Assembly (NCBI GenBank): GCA_024276465.1
Contig: JAJRXD010000065.1
Span: 1 to 64,000 of the forward strand
Reading direction: 5' to 3'
Origin: Deltaproteobacteria bacterium
Lineage (GTDB): Bacteria; Desulfobacterota; WTBG01; CAIYCZ01; CAIRTM01
DNA length: 64,000 nucleotides
Position 1 is the first letter of the stretch, and each line of letters opens with the position of its first letter. A program made the translations under genes and the position numbers. The notes below the pieces were generated by a model, which did no database searches, had not been told where the DNA came from, and was given only the letters and a program-made list of their open reading frames with translations. Positions 13,979-23,967 of the stretch are shown piece after piece.

Positions 13979-14572
13979 TTATGCTTTTTTCATGAAGAAG
14001 GTTTTAATGTCCTTTACTATTTTCTGCAGTGCATCATCAAAATTTTCAGATTTTTTACTGTGGCACAACTTCAGCAGGATTGTTTTTGAGTCCTCATCAA
14101 ATATGACAATCTCAATTTCAATGTGGGGACAGCTGTCTAAAGAAGAGGAAAACAGATCAACAAATTCCTTTTCAGGTTTCATTTCCACTATTGCTGCCAT
14201 AACTCCTGCAGCAACTGTTCTGCCTTCCATGGCTTCCGGTACTCTGAAAATATCCTGCAGTACCTCCTGCATTTTTTTCTCTGCCAGTACATTGTCAACC
14301 ATGCTGAAATTTTTCAGAGGATACACTTTAAATGATCTGCAGTTGTCAAGCCTGAACCCTTTTTTCATCCATATCCATGAAACAGTATCATCTTCCTGCA
14401 TCCCGCTGTAATCCGATATAAGCCTTTTAGGCATTTCTATCATATTTGCTGTTGCATGTTTTACAGGCTGTTGTTTACCATTTGTCTCTTTAGCGCAACC
14501 ATGCAGGAATAAAAAGAATGTTGCAAAGATAATAGATAACGGGTAAAACACAATTAGAATATTTTTTTTCAT
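13979..14572 (-). CDS. Putative lipoprotein of unknown function
   Basis: The first 25 residues form a signal peptide ending in a lipobox, LHGC, with Cys26 as the lipidation site. The remaining 170 residues are predicted periplasmic, alternating strands and helices, with a VAAGVMAAIVE segment and an I-E-I-E-I-V-I-F-D strand near residue 150. This resembles outer-membrane lipoproteins of the DUF4410/DUF3313 style in outline, but I do not recognise the family. It sits 4 bases upstream of trpF. Confidence 0.65.
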   Translation of the reverse strand: MKKNILIVFYPLSIIFATFFLFLHGCAKETNGKQQPVKHATANMIEMPKRLISDYSGMQEDDTVSWIWMKKGFRLDNCRSFKVYPLKNFSMVDNVLAEKKMQEVLQDIFRVPEAMEGRTVAAGVMAAIVEMKPEKEFVDLFSSSLDSCPHIEIEIVIFDEDSKTILLKLCHSKKSENFDDALQKIVKDIKTFFMKKA

Positions 14573-15201: not shown

Positions 15202-16295
15202 ATGAAGTTTTCTTTTTTTAAAAGGCAGTCTCAGGAAAAACAATTTCAGAAGATACTGGAAAAGTATCACAAAGCTGCTGAACAAAACCCCGGTGATATT
15301 CGAGTTCACATAAAAATTGCAGAACTGTATCTGGAGAACAACAAAAAAGACAAAGCTGTTGAGGAGTACATGATTGCTGCCAGGGCTTACCAGGATAAAC
15401 GACTCTTTCAGATAGCTGTTGCAATTTATAAACATGTTATTTCAACTGTTCCTGATAAGGTTGATGTTTATTCTGAACTTGCTGATCTGCACTTGAGAAA
15501 TGGTTTTATTGGTGACTGTGTTGCGGTTCTGGAAAAGCTGGCCAACTATTATTATGATAATGACATGAGATACGAAGCAACCAATGTTCTTAAAAAAATC
15601 AGCAGGATTGACCCGGAGAACAAATTTTTCAAAATTAAGGTGGCAAAATTCTATGAAACCAAAGACCTGTCCGAAGAGGAAACCCTGAAACAGGGGCCAA
15701 AGGACAAATGGGATCTCACTGACAAAAAAATGATACGCAACCTTTCAATGAAACTCCATCAAAAGGGTTTTTTGACCTGGAGGCTGCTCTGCAGGATGAT
15801 GTTTCAATCAGCATTTCAACTGTTTCAGATGAAGATGAGCCTGAAATGTCACAGCCTCCTGCCAGCGGCATGACCCCTGATTCAGTTTTCAGTGAACTGC
15901 AGACAATTATGGAATCTGAATCCGACAAAGATAACCCGCAGTATCATTATAATTTAGGCCTGGCATTCCAGCGCTGTAATAAAACAGAAGAGGCCCTGGA
16001 TGAATTTCAAAAGGCATTTGACGGCCTGGAAAGTAAAGTTGACTGCTGTATAAGGATGGCAGAGTGCAACATGGCATTGAACAGATTTGATGAAGCACAG
16101 AACTTAATAAAAAAGGGTCTGGGCGTTGCTTCTTTATCAGATGAGGAAAAACTGGAACTGAATTACCAGTCGGGCCTGATATATAAAGCAAAAGGCGAAA
16201 TCCAGAAAGCCCTGAAACTCTTCAGGCAGATACATGCTCTGGACAAGAACTTCAAATCTGTCAGTATGGAAATCAAGAAACTTTCACAACAATAA
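15202..16295 (+). pseudogene. TPR-repeat protein with a single frameshift at an A7 run
   Basis: The first frame (15202-15873) encodes TPR motifs such as YHKAAEQNPGDIRVHIKIAEL and ends abnormally. From the A7 run at 15724-15730 the next frame reads NDTQPFNETPSKGFFDLEAA, then an acidic linker, then MTPDSVFSEL and more TPRs (YHYNLGLAFQRCNKTEEALD) to 16295. The total length is one base short of a multiple of three, so an A8 run would restore a single 364-residue protein. It opens the MglA-like cluster, 20 bases before the GTPase. FDLEAAL linkers between TPR blocks are familiar from deltaproteobacterial type IV pilus and motility TPR proteins. It is either an assembly error, slippage at the A run, or a young pseudogene. 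Confidence 0.85.
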
Positions 16296-16315
16296 AAAAG
16301 AGGTTAAAAGAAGAT

Positions 16316-17587
16316 ATGGCTGTTTTTAATGCTGCAAAAAGAGAAATAGATATAAAAATCGTGTATTACGGCCCGGCTTTATGTGGCAAGACAACAAATG
16401 TACAATGTATCCACAACAAGCTCAGCCCGGATCAGCGTGGTGATATTATGTCTCTTGCCACCAAAGATGACAGAACACTGTTTTTTGATTTTCTTCCCAT
16501 AGAGCTGGGAAACATAAAAGGTTTTAAAACCCGTTTCCATATTTATACAGTACCCGGCCAGGTATACTATTCACTCACAAGAAGGGCTGTTCTGACAGGC
16601 ATTGACGGGATTATTTTTGTGGCAGACTCTCAAAACAACAAAATGGAGGAAAACACCGAAAGTCTGAAGGATCTGGTTGAAAACTTAAAATATTATAAAA
16701 AAGACCTTACCACAGTTCCTTTGATCTTTCAGTATAACAAAAGAGATCTTGACAATATTCTGTCTGTTGAAGAACTGAACGATTCTCTGAACATGCTCAG
16801 TGTGCCTTATTTTGAAGCAAGTGCAATTCAGGGCACTGGCATTGTGGAAACCCTGACTGAGTGCTGCAAGCTGGTGTTGAAGCAAATGAACAGATCATCA
16901 GAAAAGAAAAAGAGCCCTCAACAGCCTTTACAAAGCATGTCTGAAGGGGACAATGAGAGTTTTGAACCCATTATAAAAATTACCAGCGAAGATATCCCCG
17001 CAACACAGGATCAGTGCCTGTCATCTGAAGCACAGAACAGTGAAAACACTCCTCAACAGCCCTCTGTTGAGTCACTTAGTCTGGAAGAACCGAAAATTTC
17101 CCACACCATGGAACCAGAGATAAAAATTGATTCTTCAGATATTTCTTCTGACACAAATGAATCCGCCATACCTGCTGAAGAAATATCTCTGCAAGAGGAT
17201 ATCCCGTCCCTGAAATTTGAAAATGAGCAGGAAGACATATCTGTTTCAGAACCTGAAATATCCCTGGATCCCCCCTCTGTTGAAATTCAGGATGAACCTG
17301 AAATATCCCTGGATTCCCCTTCTGTTGAAATTCAGAATGAACCTGAAATATCCCTGGATTCCCCTTCTGTTGAAATTCAGAATGAACCTGAAATATCCCT
17401 GGATTCCCCTTCTGTTGAAATTCAGGATGAACCTGAAACAGGCTTCAGGATAATTTCATGTGGACATCCACAAAAGGATTCCAACACATCCATAAAAATT
17501 CCGATCATTTTTAAAATTGACCAGGTGGAAGGGGAATGTATGGTTAATCTATGCATTACATTTGATGATTTTAAACTGAAAAGGTAA
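16316..17587 (+). CDS. MglA-type small GTPase with long acidic repeat tail
   Basis: Residues 1-200 are a close relative of MglA, the Ras-like GTPase that sets cell polarity and controls type IV pili and gliding. Walker A is GPALCGKTTN (19-28), Arg53 and Gln82 (TVPGQVYY) match the catalytic residues of MglA by position, and NKRD is at 141-144. Unlike MglA (about 195 residues), this protein continues for 220 acidic residues, including four 15-residue repeats (EPEISLDSPSVEIQN, residues 312-371), and ends in a small beta-rich segment. No mglB (roadblock) gene is adjacent. It lies in a tight plus-strand cluster with TPR, membrane and DUF4388 genes, which suggests a pole- or pilus-related complex. 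Confidence 0.9.
   Translation: MAVFNAAKREIDIKIVYYGPALCGKTTNVQCIHNKLSPDQRGDIMSLATKDDRTLFFDFLPIELGNIKGFKTRFHIYTVPGQVYYSLTRRAVLTGIDGIIFVADSQNNKMEENTESLKDLVENLKYYKKDLTTVPLIFQYNKRDLDNILSVEELNDSLNMLSVPYFEASAIQGTGIVETLTECCKLVLKQMNRSSEKKKSPQQPLQSMSEGDNESFEPIIKITSEDIPATQDQCLSSEAQNSENTPQQPSVESLSLEEPKISHTMEPEIKIDSSDISSDTNESAIPAEEISLQEDIPSLKFENEQEDISVSEPEISLDPPSVEIQDEPEISLDSPSVEIQNEPEISLDSPSVEIQNEPEISLDSPSVEIQDEPETGFRIISCGHPQKDSNTSIKIPIIFKIDQVEGECMVNLCITFDDFKLKR
17249..17428 (+). repeat. Four 45-bp in-frame tandem repeats
   Basis: Four consecutive 45-base units beginning GAACCTGAAATATCCCTGGA encode EPEISLDSPSVEIQN-type repeats in the tail of the MglA-like GTPase. The last three units are almost identical in DNA, so expansion is recent and the copy number is likely to vary between strains. 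Confidence 0.95.
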
Positions 17588-17605
17588 TCCTGTTAATAAT
17601 ATAAA

Positions 17606-19465
17606 ATGAAAATTTCTTTTTATGGCATTCCCCATGTTCTTTTAGCCTTCCTTGCTGTCATAGTCTTCAAAGGGTCACATCCCGGCGTTGAAGCATACAT
17701 TAACCATGTGTCACTTAATAATTTAAAAAACCCTCAAAAACTTGCACCATTTTTAGAAAGGGTTTACCAGAAAACCCTGGACAGCGGCATAACGAACTTC
17801 ACCCCTTACGCTCTCATGCTTATAAAAGAATCCCAAAAAGCTCTTGGAGAAAAAGATCTGAAAAAAGCGGAACTTTTTTCAGAATATGCAGGGAAGCTTG
17901 CACCAGATCTTCCCCCCGTAAGTAACACAAAAGCACTGGTGCAATGGAGCAAAAATAAAATTCTTGTTCACCGGCTTATCCAGGGTTATGTGAAAGCCTT
18001 TATAAAAGAGTTGCAGCACCTTGAATCTCTTTCTTTTATGCTGTTTGCAAGCCTGTTGACTGTTGCCGTGGCATTTCTGCTGACAATTTGCGTTTTCACA
18101 GCAATATCCATGATAAAATATTTTACTTTGGCATTTCATGATTTGAGGCATATTGTTACAAAGGCTGTTCCGGACAAAGCTCTCTGGGGAATGCTGCTGA
18201 TTGTTTTTTTTCTTCCGGTGTTTCTGGGTTTCTCTGTTTTGCCTGTTTGCATCTACTGGCTCATTCTGCTTTTCAGTTATCACAGTAAAAAGGAACGGTT
18301 AATAATAACAGGGGCTTTTTTACTGTTTTCTCTTATGCCGCTTGTTATCTCCGGATCATGTTTCAGCCTGTATATATCCCGGTCTGATGTTATTCAACTT
18401 TTATGGAAAGCAAACCATGGCTATTGGGACCAAACGGTCATGGAAAAGCTTGAAAAGTACAGTGAAGAACATCCTGAAGATCAGGATGTTCTTTTTAGCG
18501 CAGGTCTGCTGCACAAAAAAGAGATGAATTACAGAACATCCAGAAAATATTATGACAAGCTGATTGGTATTAACCCCGGTTTTTATAAAGCCTATATTAA
18601 CCTCGGTAATGTCTGTCTCGCTACAGAAAACTGGGATGAAGCTGTTGAGAAATACAAAACCGCAATTTCTATTAAACCTTCCTTGAGTGCAGCTGCTCAT
18701 TTTAATCTTACAAGGGCTTATCAGCAAAAATTTATGTTCAGGGAGGCTGAAGAAGAGCTGGCAAAGGCCAAGAAAATCGATAGCAGCAGAATAGACAGCT
18801 ATCTTAAGATCTATTCTGAAAACTATAATCGTCTTCTCATGGATGAAACAATCTCGAAAAAAAGGCTTTGGAACAAGGGCTATCTTTTATTCAGAGAAAA
18901 CAATGACATGGTAAATGGATGCTGGGACCTTTTATTCAGGGGCATCCCGTTCAAATATGCCACTGCAGTGGTTCTTTGTTTATTACTTTTAATGCTTATT
19001 CTTTCAAGAAACGACAAATTACGGGTAGCAATAAAATGCAAAACCTGCGGCAGATCTATCTGCAAAAGATGCCAGAGGAATATCTCCGGGGATGTCAAGT
19101 GTTATCAGTGCATTAATATATCATCACATCAGGAGGGCAGTGACTACAGGTTAATGGAAAACCAGAAAATAAAAGTAAAAAAATATTTAAAGCGTTTCAA
19201 TAACATTGGAGCTGCTCTAACCCTGTTATTGCCGGGTGCAGGCCATCTGTGGAATGGACACACTGCAAGGGGAATAATTTACCTTTTACTGTTTTGCTTT
19301 TTTGCTGTAAAACTTATTGCTGTTGTTCTGCTTGAAGGCCCATGGGAATTTGTAGTCACAGGCAAAATGACTGAAATAATAATTCTGCTGTTTTTACTGC
19401 TTTTCTTCTGGTTAATGTCTGTAATAGATACATTTAAAAACAGAAAAGTCCTGGGGGCTAATTAA
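17606..19465 (+). CDS. Membrane protein with TPR block and zinc ribbon
   Basis: This 619-residue protein starts with a signal-anchor (8-24), then a soluble region of about 110 residues, then several membrane helices between 145 and 260. Residues 275-390 form TPRs (YKAYINLGNVCLATENWDEA). A further membrane helix near 450 is followed by a zinc ribbon (CKTCGRSICKRCQ and CYQC, 480-505), and the C-terminus has helices with a TM2-like turn GAGHLWNGHTARG. I do not recognise a named family. The mix suggests a scaffold that places TPR and zinc modules at the inner membrane. It starts 18 bases after the MglA-like gene and ends 3 bases before the DUF4388 gene, so all are likely translated together. Confidence 0.8.
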   Translation: MKISFYGIPHVLLAFLAVIVFKGSHPGVEAYINHVSLNNLKNPQKLAPFLERVYQKTLDSGITNFTPYALMLIKESQKALGEKDLKKAELFSEYAGKLAPDLPPVSNTKALVQWSKNKILVHRLIQGYVKAFIKELQHLESLSFMLFASLLTVAVAFLLTICVFTAISMIKYFTLAFHDLRHIVTKAVPDKALWGMLLIVFFLPVFLGFSVLPVCIYWLILLFSYHSKKERLIITGAFLLFSLMPLVISGSCFSLYISRSDVIQLLWKANHGYWDQTVMEKLEKYSEEHPEDQDVLFSAGLLHKKEMNYRTSRKYYDKLIGINPGFYKAYINLGNVCLATENWDEAVEKYKTAISIKPSLSAAAHFNLTRAYQQKFMFREAEEELAKAKKIDSSRIDSYLKIYSENYNRLLMDETISKKRLWNKGYLLFRENNDMVNGCWDLLFRGIPFKYATAVVLCLLLLMLILSRNDKLRVAIKCKTCGRSICKRCQRNISGDVKCYQCINISSHQEGSDYRLMENQKIKVKKYLKRFNNIGAALTLLLPGAGHLWNGHTARGIIYLLLFCFFAVKLIAVVLLEGPWEFVVTGKMTEIIILLFLLLFFWLMSVIDTFKNRKVLGAN

Positions 19466-19468
19466 AAT

Positions 19469-20539
19469 ATGGCATTAGAGGGTAGAATAAAAGAATTCGG
19501 GGTTGCTGACATTCTCCAGCTCATTGCTCAACAGCAAAAAACAGGCATTCTCATGATAGAAAACAAACATGAAAAAGCAGAGGTTTATTTTGTTGATGGA
19601 CAAATAATTGAGACGCAGAGATTTCAACAGTCAGACCGCAATCCGCTTGGAGAAATACTGATAAGGGCTGGATTAATCTCCTTTCATGACCTTAAAAGTG
19701 CCCTGGCAAAACAGAAAAAAACCTGTGAACATCTTGGCCATATTCTTCTCAGAGAAGGATTTGCAACTAAAGAGCAGCTTGAAAAAACCATACTCATACA
19801 GGCATATGAAACATTTTATGATATTCTCCAGTGGTATGATGGCACATACCGCTTTATTTCACACAACATAAGCATTGACAACAGCCTGTCATCCATACCT
19901 GCACTTGAAGTAATTCTTCTTGATGTGCTCAGAATGATTGACGAGTGGCCCGGGGTAAAACAGGTCATAACCTCTTTTAACATGGTATTTGCCAGAGGGG
20001 AGAAAAAAACTGATGGCAAACTGGATTCGGATGAACTGCTTGTGTATGACCTTGTTAACGGAAGTAATACTGTTCAGGATATAGTTGACAAAAGCCTTTT
20101 GGGAAGATTTTCAGCATGTAAAGTACTTGCCGGGTTGTTTCAGAACCAATACATCAAGCTCACTCCTGCAAAGGCTAAAAAAAGAAGGCCCGGGGGGGTA
20201 ACAACCTTTCAAAAAGCTGTTGGGGTTGCTTCATACGCCGGGCTGTTCAGCATATTATCTCTTTTGTTTCTGCTTGCAGCAAAACATCCGGGCAGTGTTA
20301 TTCCACTGCCAAATCAAAAAACATGGGCCCAGTCACACATTAAACAATACCTGAGACTTGGAACAATGCAAAAGCTGGCAAAGGCCCTGGAAATATTTCG
20401 TTTAAAAAACGGACGTTATCCGGAAAAAACAGCAGAGCTTGTAAGTTCAGGAATTTTACGGGATGGCGACCTGAAAGCCTTTACTAACGAAACAATTACC
20501 TATTCTAAAAAGGGTGATTTTTATTTAATCAGTTTCTGA
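19469..20539 (+). CDS. DUF4388 (PATAN) domain protein with C-terminal membrane anchor
   Basis: Residues 1-100 are a DUF4388 domain (MALEGRIKEFGVADILQLIA, then KTGILMIEN and AEVYFVDGQII), an adaptor domain common in deltaproteobacterial two-component and polarity systems. Residues 75-125 resemble the MshEN-type helical module of pilus ATPases (GEILIRAGLIS and LGHILLREGFATKEQL). A winged-helix-like part follows, then a membrane helix at 252-270. The periplasmic tail has LEIFRLKNGRYPEKTAEL, reminiscent of pseudopilin C-termini. It is the last gene of the MglA-like cluster. The partners are unknown, but the context points to motility or secretion control. Confidence 0.85.
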   Translation: MALEGRIKEFGVADILQLIAQQQKTGILMIENKHEKAEVYFVDGQIIETQRFQQSDRNPLGEILIRAGLISFHDLKSALAKQKKTCEHLGHILLREGFATKEQLEKTILIQAYETFYDILQWYDGTYRFISHNISIDNSLSSIPALEVILLDVLRMIDEWPGVKQVITSFNMVFARGEKKTDGKLDSDELLVYDLVNGSNTVQDIVDKSLLGRFSACKVLAGLFQNQYIKLTPAKAKKRRPGGVTTFQKAVGVASYAGLFSILSLLFLLAAKHPGSVIPLPNQKTWAQSHIKQYLRLGTMQKLAKALEIFRLKNGRYPEKTAELVSSGILRDGDLKAFTNETITYSKKGDFYLISF

Positions 20540-22882: not shown

Positions 22883-23917
22883 TCATTCAGATTTAATTTT
22901 TTTTATTGCATTGTCAGCACACCATCTGACCTTGCTGTTTGTATCATTTAAAAGTTTTTCAAGACCCGGAACAGCTTCTTCAGCCAGCTCTCCCATCTCT
23001 CCCAGACTGAATGCTGCATTCTTGCGAATTCTGAAATCCCTGCTTTCAAGTGCTTCTATTAAAGCAGGAACTGCCGGCTCACCAATTTCTGCAAGTGCAA
23101 AGGCAGCATTTTTTCTAACCTCTGCCTTTTCGTCATTAAGACAAAAAACAAGTGCTGATATGACATTTCTGGTCTTTACTCCTTTTTCCCCCAGGGTTTT
23201 GACTGCCTTAGAGCGAATTATTATATCCTTGTCATTTAAGCAGGCTATGAGATCTTCTACTGTAACCTGTTTGATATTTCTCAAAGCCTGCTTTACTGTC
23301 CAGCAAAACGCCTTATCCTCATCATCCAAAGCTCTTTCGAGTGCAGGGATTGCATCTTTTGCTTTTGGGCCAATTCTTCCAAGAATTCCGGCAGCATTTT
23401 TCCTGATGAGGGGAGAGGTGTCCTGTAATATTGCTGTGAGAAAAGGAACTGCTGGTTCTCCTATTCGAACAAGTGCAGCAGCAACATTCCTGCGCACTCT
23501 GGAGTCCCTGTCGCTCAACGCTTTCACGAGGACTGGAGTGGATTGAAAACCGATCTCTCCAAGCGCAAAAGCAGCATTCCTGCGTACTTCCCTGTCCGGA
23601 TCTTTTATCAACACTTTTGCAAGATCATTGATTGCAGGTTCTGCCTCCGGCCCTATCTCTCCTAATGCAAAAGCAGCATTCCTGCGAATGTTCACCTCTT
23701 TGCTCCTCAACCCTTCAAGCAATGCTGGAATTGCAGCTTTTACATCTGAACCATATTCCTGAATAATCTCGAATCCGGATAATGCTGACCGGGGTTCTGC
23801 AGTAATATCCCCAGTACCGGTATCTGATTGAAGTTCCTGAGCATTGGATATTGCAGTAATCACGCAGCATAAAGAGATTAAAAAAAAGACGCTTCTTTTC
23901 AATGAATTTATGACCAC
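22883..23917 (-). CDS. Secreted HEAT-repeat protein
   Basis: The product has a signal peptide (VFFLISLCCVITAISNAQ) and then a continuous array of about eight HEAT units of 30-31 residues with the consensus VRRNAAFALGEIG-x-x-A-V-P-x-L. Several units are almost identical at the protein level. PBS-lyase HEAT proteins act as scaffolds; a specific role cannot be deduced. I prefer a GTG start at 23917, which has GGAG 10 bases upstream, over a TTG at 23944. tRNA-Met lies 51 bases upstream of that start and reads in the same direction. Confidence 0.85.
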   Translation of the reverse strand: MVINSLKRSVFFLISLCCVITAISNAQELQSDTGTGDITAEPRSALSGFEIIQEYGSDVKAAIPALLEGLRSKEVNIRRNAAFALGEIGPEAEPAINDLAKVLIKDPDREVRRNAAFALGEIGFQSTPVLVKALSDRDSRVRRNVAAALVRIGEPAVPFLTAILQDTSPLIRKNAAGILGRIGPKAKDAIPALERALDDEDKAFCWTVKQALRNIKQVTVEDLIACLNDKDIIIRSKAVKTLGEKGVKTRNVISALVFCLNDEKAEVRKNAAFALAEIGEPAVPALIEALESRDFRIRKNAAFSLGEMGELAEEAVPGLEKLLNDTNSKVRWCADNAIKKIKSE

Positions 23918-23967
23918 AGTTATTAATCTCCACCGGCAGGACAAAGTCAGGGTTAAAAAAAGGAAGA

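Follow-up and report, generated by a model that had tools for sequence, protein, structure and literature searches.

A four-gene unit around an MglA-like GTPase without MglB in uncultured Thermodesulfobacteriota

Genes of the locus

The window, that is, the whole stretch of deltaproteobacterial DNA analysed here, comprises 64,000 nucleotides and belongs to a draft genome of 4.1 Mb (181 contigs, 95% complete). Among its genes are four tightly packed ones specifying an SgmX-like TPR protein, an MglA-like GTPase, a multi-span membrane protein (MEM) and a PATAN (DUF4388) protein (Table 1). The coordinates and spacings given in the preliminary description were confirmed, the intergenic gaps being 20 (TPR/GTPase), 18 (GTPase/MEM) and 3 (MEM/PATAN) bases, but the TPR gene, which had been read as a single frame, proved to lie in two different ones. 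A scan for promoters and terminators was uninformative, and no pilus genes lie in or beside the module. The divergent gene on its upstream side encodes a putative lipoprotein with no match in Pfam. Also near the module, at 22883-23944 on the reverse strand, is a gene for a 353 amino acid protein consisting almost wholly of HEAT/PBS-lyase-like repeats, which is conserved in locus L033.

Table 1. Features of the module and its flank in the window
Feature	Position	Strand	Basis
Putative lipoprotein, 197 aa, divergent	13979..14572	-	blastp 31-41% in eight neighbouring loci
SgmX-like TPR gene, 5' frame	15202..15873	+	ORF; 223 aa, final ~35 aa out of frame
SgmX-like TPR gene, 3' frame	15846..16295	+	ORF and SgmX profile match
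MglA-like GTPase	16316..17587	+	423 aa; M. xanthus MglA match, motifs, AF2
GTPase C-terminal four-stranded beta domain	17435..17584	+	alignment, pLDDT 76-89
MEM	17606..19465	+	Pfam TPRs, invariant cysteines in alignment, hydropathy
PATAN (DUF4388) protein	19469..20539	+	PF14332, NF053729, PilF/MshE/PilB N-domain matches

The N-terminal frame of the TPR protein (aa 15-159) corresponds to positions 19-163 of SgmX (NF052243; E=2e-20), its top NCBIfam family, and the C-terminal frame (aa 12-147) to positions 876-1014 of 1065 (E=4e-11), close to the SgmX C-terminus and the site of the MglA-GTP-binding TPRs. SgmX was matched by all 13 TPR relatives scanned, colinearly at both ends, and was not listed at E<=1e-6 for five control proteins rich in TPRs, whose general TPR scores were very strong (for the four longest of these, among the 25 matches listed). 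The intact relative L033 scores 102 bits, far below the SgmX equivalog cut-off of 1800, as is expected of a protein one third as long (approximately 363 aa against 1060 aa) and thus not full length. Since both ends of SgmX are matched, the window protein resembles these ends minus the middle. In SgmX, binding of MglA-GTP falls to the last three TPRs (TPR12-14; PMC7668184) and activation of type IVa pili (T4aP) to the first eight (PMC11580455). Judged by its sequence, the TPR protein is a short SgmX/Bd2492-type protein and, since SgmX and Bd2492 are effectors or partners of MglA-GTP (PMC7519303, PMC7668184, PMC3983030), it is by analogy likelier to be an effector than the GAP that the preliminary description had suggested, a role that found no support.

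Comparison of the frames places the break in the TPR gene at a one-base shift in a homopolymer-rich stretch, AAAAGGGTTTTTT, at ~15761-15773, with an FFDL motif, almost invariant in intact relatives, directly downstream. The intact relatives are single ORFs of 339-371 aa. The shift is possibly a sequencing or assembly error or else a recent mutation, between which a 181-contig draft does not distinguish. Although the site contains A-AAG-GGT and T-TTT-TTG, resembling slippery heptamers, programmed -1 frameshifting was set aside because the relatives use one frame. Decay of the system in this genome, with the TPR gene inactivated by the frameshift, would likewise explain why two overlapping frames replace one ORF; we consider it unlikely, though by no means negligible, given that both TPR halves are still open and similar to the relatives, that the GTPase, MEM and PATAN genes are intact, and that the shift falls in a homopolymer tract of a 181-contig draft assembly.

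The top PDB matches of the GTPase are MglA structures, that of M. xanthus (6hjh) being matched with a phmmer E-value of 2e-67 and 53% identity across the G domain. The catalytic residues Arg53 and Gln82 are in place as previously described, the latter within a TVPGQ motif (78-82) that is present in the window protein and in all 27 module GTPases, together with the Arg53 context. Nevertheless this is not a plain MglA: the G domain (aa 1-193) is followed by a disordered linker (~198-374, pLDDT mostly 23-30) and a folded tail (~376-420), an undescribed C-terminal β-domain of ~45 residues. At 287-553 aa the module GTPases exceed the single domain of ~195 aa that serves as the Group 1 criterion. 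The AF2 model, based on only 8 sequences, is poor for the G domain and confident for the tail. The beta-tail is conserved in module members and recognisable in some tailed GTPases outside their clade. It has no relative among PDB sequences or in Pfam, and the idea of a roadblock domain hidden in it is unsupported for that reason.

MEM contains an N-terminal hydrophobic segment, a TPR region (251-448), a Cys4 zinc ribbon (478-502) in which C478, C481, C499 and C502 are invariant in the alignment, and a C-terminal PGAGHxW membrane segment, so that the TPRs and zinc ribbon noted earlier are both borne out. The DUF4388 assignment of the last protein is equally secure (PF14332; E=3e-29, 101.9 bits against a cut-off of 25). 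Its residues 4-160 form a PATAN domain with an MshE/PilB-N-like insert (aa 59-107), which matches NF053729 (E=8e-14, 51 bits against a cut-off of 38) and, by profile, the N-domains of PilF, MshE and PilB in the PDB. The Arg of the RLG motif, which we take to be the ligand-contacting residue in MshEN c-di-GMP receptors, is replaced by Pro in the window; binding of c-di-GMP by the PATAN protein is doubtful because this Arg is kept in only 4 of the 12 rows of the alignment. One clear TM helix (aa 251-269) is followed in the AF2 model by a short extracytoplasmic tail with a long helix and a hairpin. The pseudopilin-like character claimed for this tail is less secure than the domain assignment, its similarity to pilins being weak in Pfam (T2SSG, E=0.048), in the profile comparison with GspG (E=0.09) and in Foldseek, where pilins and GspG pseudopilins are among the matches and the top one is the pilin PilA4 (E=0.58). 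The similarity is lost in some members (L044, L046).

Distribution of the module and of MglB

The order TPR-GTPase-MEM-PATAN is whole in 20 loci from six families (f1, f3, f13, f24, f37 and f46) and recurs in f2 and f4, where the end of the locus truncates one of the genes. The gene order on whose conservation the preliminary description had made its proposal depend is therefore found in eight families of the phylum, and the four-gene cluster is real, beyond chance. With the exception of three weak matches from other groups, the named loci are from uncultured Thermodesulfobacteriota or deltaproteobacterial MAGs. A MEM profile built from 14 rows was too divergent for the contig scan; a tighter set recovered only 10 loci, all of them MAGs. 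The unit also occurs in parts. MEM-PATAN pairs without the GTPase lie beside unrelated genes in f6, f12, f15, f18 and f36, TPR-GTPase pairs stand alone in f28, and a second copy of such a pair is found in f24 (L043, L149). The unit therefore appears as two sub-modules joined, of which the MEM-PATAN half, existing as it does without the GTPase, may serve a purpose of its own.

Neutral synteny of unrelated genes would account for the neighbours secA, trpF and the divergent lipoprotein gene, which flank the module and are kept within f1 and f2. Outside these two families the flanks differ and those neighbours are gone, the lipoprotein gene thus being no core part, but the four genes are still in order, and the TPR-GTPase and MEM-PATAN halves also travel as pairs. 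The gene order across families and the GTPase tree already disfavour this explanation, which we regard as highly improbable.

In the 4.1-Mb, 95% complete window genome, which encodes a single MglA-like GTPase, no Robl_LC7 domain was found at E<=0.1; the absence of MglB observed earlier within the window thus extends to distant sites. The phylum was surveyed through 297 genomes, in 34 of which the genes for GTPase and MEM are neighbours on a single contig. Robl_LC7 is absent from all 34 of these and present in 119 of the 134 other GTPase-bearing genomes. Genomes within a family are not independent, and the count by family, 0/7 against 57/61 (lists tabulated by hand), is the fairer one. The earlier suggestion of a conserved assembly around an MglA without MglB is thus supported by the gene order and these counts.

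A tree of 63 rows places the module GTPases, along with a few TPR-linked or duplicate copies, in a single clade (95/98); they do not group with M. xanthus MglA, which is in another clade (90/90) with the MglB-coupled GTPases. The residues separating the two sets cluster in switch II/alpha-2 (Y84, T88, A91, V92 and T94 in protein numbering), in a comparison that includes only six MglB-coupled sequences.

Several other GTPases came to light in the course of this work. Two loci of one family (L060:8374-8973 and L061:8296-8895, genus g2) carry a second, tail-less copy of the module GTPase of 199 aa, with a TPR fragment just upstream in L061. The neighbours of tailed GTPases outside the module clade are different and mostly unnamed. 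Such GTPases include proteins of 947 aa with a very long, strongly acidic tail (L124:4742-7585, reverse strand) and of 606 aa with a very long tail (L128:3561-5381). Those of L050, L052, L127 and L135 adjoin proteins of ~340-360 aa, with weak HEAT repeats in L050 and no Pfam family in L052 and L127, which are possibly another type of orphan-MglA partner. Short MglA-like GTPases (214-226 aa) of a second, deeply diverged group, all from one family (L065, L066, L069 and L070), keep TVPGQ and adjoin genes for proteins of ~440-490 aa and ~800 aa.

Relation to described systems

The closest parallel is the MglA-SgmX (FrzS, SopA) pathway of T4aP in M. xanthus, with which the module shares a Group-1-type MglA bearing Arg53, TVPGQ and Gln82 (PMC7519303, PMC7668184, PMC11580455) and a TPR protein with similarity both to the N-terminal part of SgmX, which activates pili, and to its MglA-binding C-terminal part. 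It differs in lacking MglB, in forming one operon-like unit, in the long linker and C-terminal domain of the GTPase and in its two added membrane proteins; the TPR protein, at one third of the length of SgmX, is without the middle, FrzS-binding TPRs. In Bdellovibrio, which has no MglB, MglA (Bd3734) binds the 353-aa TPR protein Bd2492 and is linked to pili (PMC3983030). This resembles the module, with its putative TPR partner of ~350 aa, but the Bdellovibrio genes are not adjacent, the TPR gene lies with tamAB, the MglA is tail-less and no PATAN or MEM genes are reported beside either gene (PMC3983030). SofG, an orphan MglA of M. xanthus, is similar by description, having the intrinsic Arg, no known GAP and a role in positioning the pilus ATPase (PMC4316618). 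The PATAN domain is shared with the Synechocystis PATAN-CheY regulators PixG, PixE and LsiR, which act on PilB1 (PMC7690835, PMC10519157), PATAN domains binding PilB in this organism (PMC10519157). Unlike these, the module protein possesses an MshEN-like insert, a TM helix and a periplasmic tail, and no receiver domain.

The preliminary description had called the assembly undescribed. MglA without MglB, MglA-TPR pairs and PATAN near MglA are already known (PMC3983030, PMC7519303, PMC4316618), PATAN genes near Group 1 MglA having been noted in 2014 (PMC4316618). For the unit of four genes, the clade of tailed GTPases and the exclusion of MglB from it the term stands, no description having been found in the literature searched, which leaves most subscription journals outside; nor did that literature yield a publication joining DUF4388 and MglA. 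MglA biology is built on the GTPase-GAP pair of MglA and MglB. In the lineage-wide group described here MglB is missing, the catalytic residues are kept, a putative effector gene adjoins and membrane partners are co-encoded; it offers a small operon in which to study how a Ras-like switch of bacteria returns to its off state when there is no roadblock GAP.

Proposed role and its alternatives

The role that we favour, with somewhat better than even confidence, is control of a type IV filament machine, type IVa pili being the likeliest, by an MglA/SgmX-type unit that is complete in itself and operates without the MglB GAP/GEF. In this scheme the SgmX-like protein would be bound through its C-terminal TPRs by the GTP-bound tailed MglA and directed to an envelope site or pole, where its N-terminal TPRs may help to recruit or activate the pilus extension ATPase. 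MEM and the PATAN/MshEN protein would form a membrane receptor through which the switch docks onto the base and motor of the pilus. Here we infer the physical interactions, the pilus as target and the source of stimulation of GTP hydrolysis. How SgmX is linked to the pilus motor has been stated to be unknown, and PATAN proteins co-occur with SgmX in STRING (PMC11580455); the module offers candidates for this missing link. A PilT-family ATPase over the cut-off was present in all 32 module genomes tested and missing in 4 of 18 controls without the GTPase. This is weakly permissive of the pilus reading, since PilT is nearly universal in the phylum, and presence of PilT or PilM discriminates module genomes poorly.

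Of the polarity, pilus or secretion assembly proposed earlier, the link to pili stands as the best guess, by virtue of the SgmX-like TPR protein and the PATAN protein with its PilB-N-like domain. That the module instead acts on a different machine, belonging to the type IV filament superfamily or to the envelope, such as a T2SS, TamAB-like secretion or polysaccharide export, appears unlikely. The GspG-like tail of the PATAN protein alongside a PilB/GspE-type N-domain, with its weak profile and Foldseek matches to pilins and pseudopilins, would fit such a machine, MshEN-like domains are found outside pilus ATPases too, the Bdellovibrio TPR partner of MglA lies within the tamAB operon (PMC3983030), and MEM-PATAN pairs adjoin housekeeping genes in other families. 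The resemblance of the tail falls short of significance, however, and is lost in L044 and L046; the SgmX homology and PATAN-PilB precedents point to pili. About as doubtful is the broader notion that these GTPases are an MglA subfamily of their own, vertically inherited, whose MglB GAP/GEF has given way to regulation internal to the module, through the disordered tether and new beta-domain, the membrane PATAN-MEM pair, or both. If true, the unit would be an autonomous, membrane-docked pilus polarity switch, Ras-like and with a built-in or non-roadblock regulator.

A GAP in place of MglB, supplied by the TPR protein or the MEM/PATAN pair, seems quite improbable. Since the module GTPases retain Arg53 and Gln82, GTP hydrolysis is still under selection though MglB is gone; the class-specific substitutions in switch II/alpha-2 are those expected if the regulator had changed. 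No module protein is roadblock-like, however, and the proteins to which the TPR protein is related are effectors that bind MglA-GTP (PMC7519303). In SofG, for which no GAP is known, the two residues are likewise retained (PMC4316618), so that a slow intrinsic rate may suffice.
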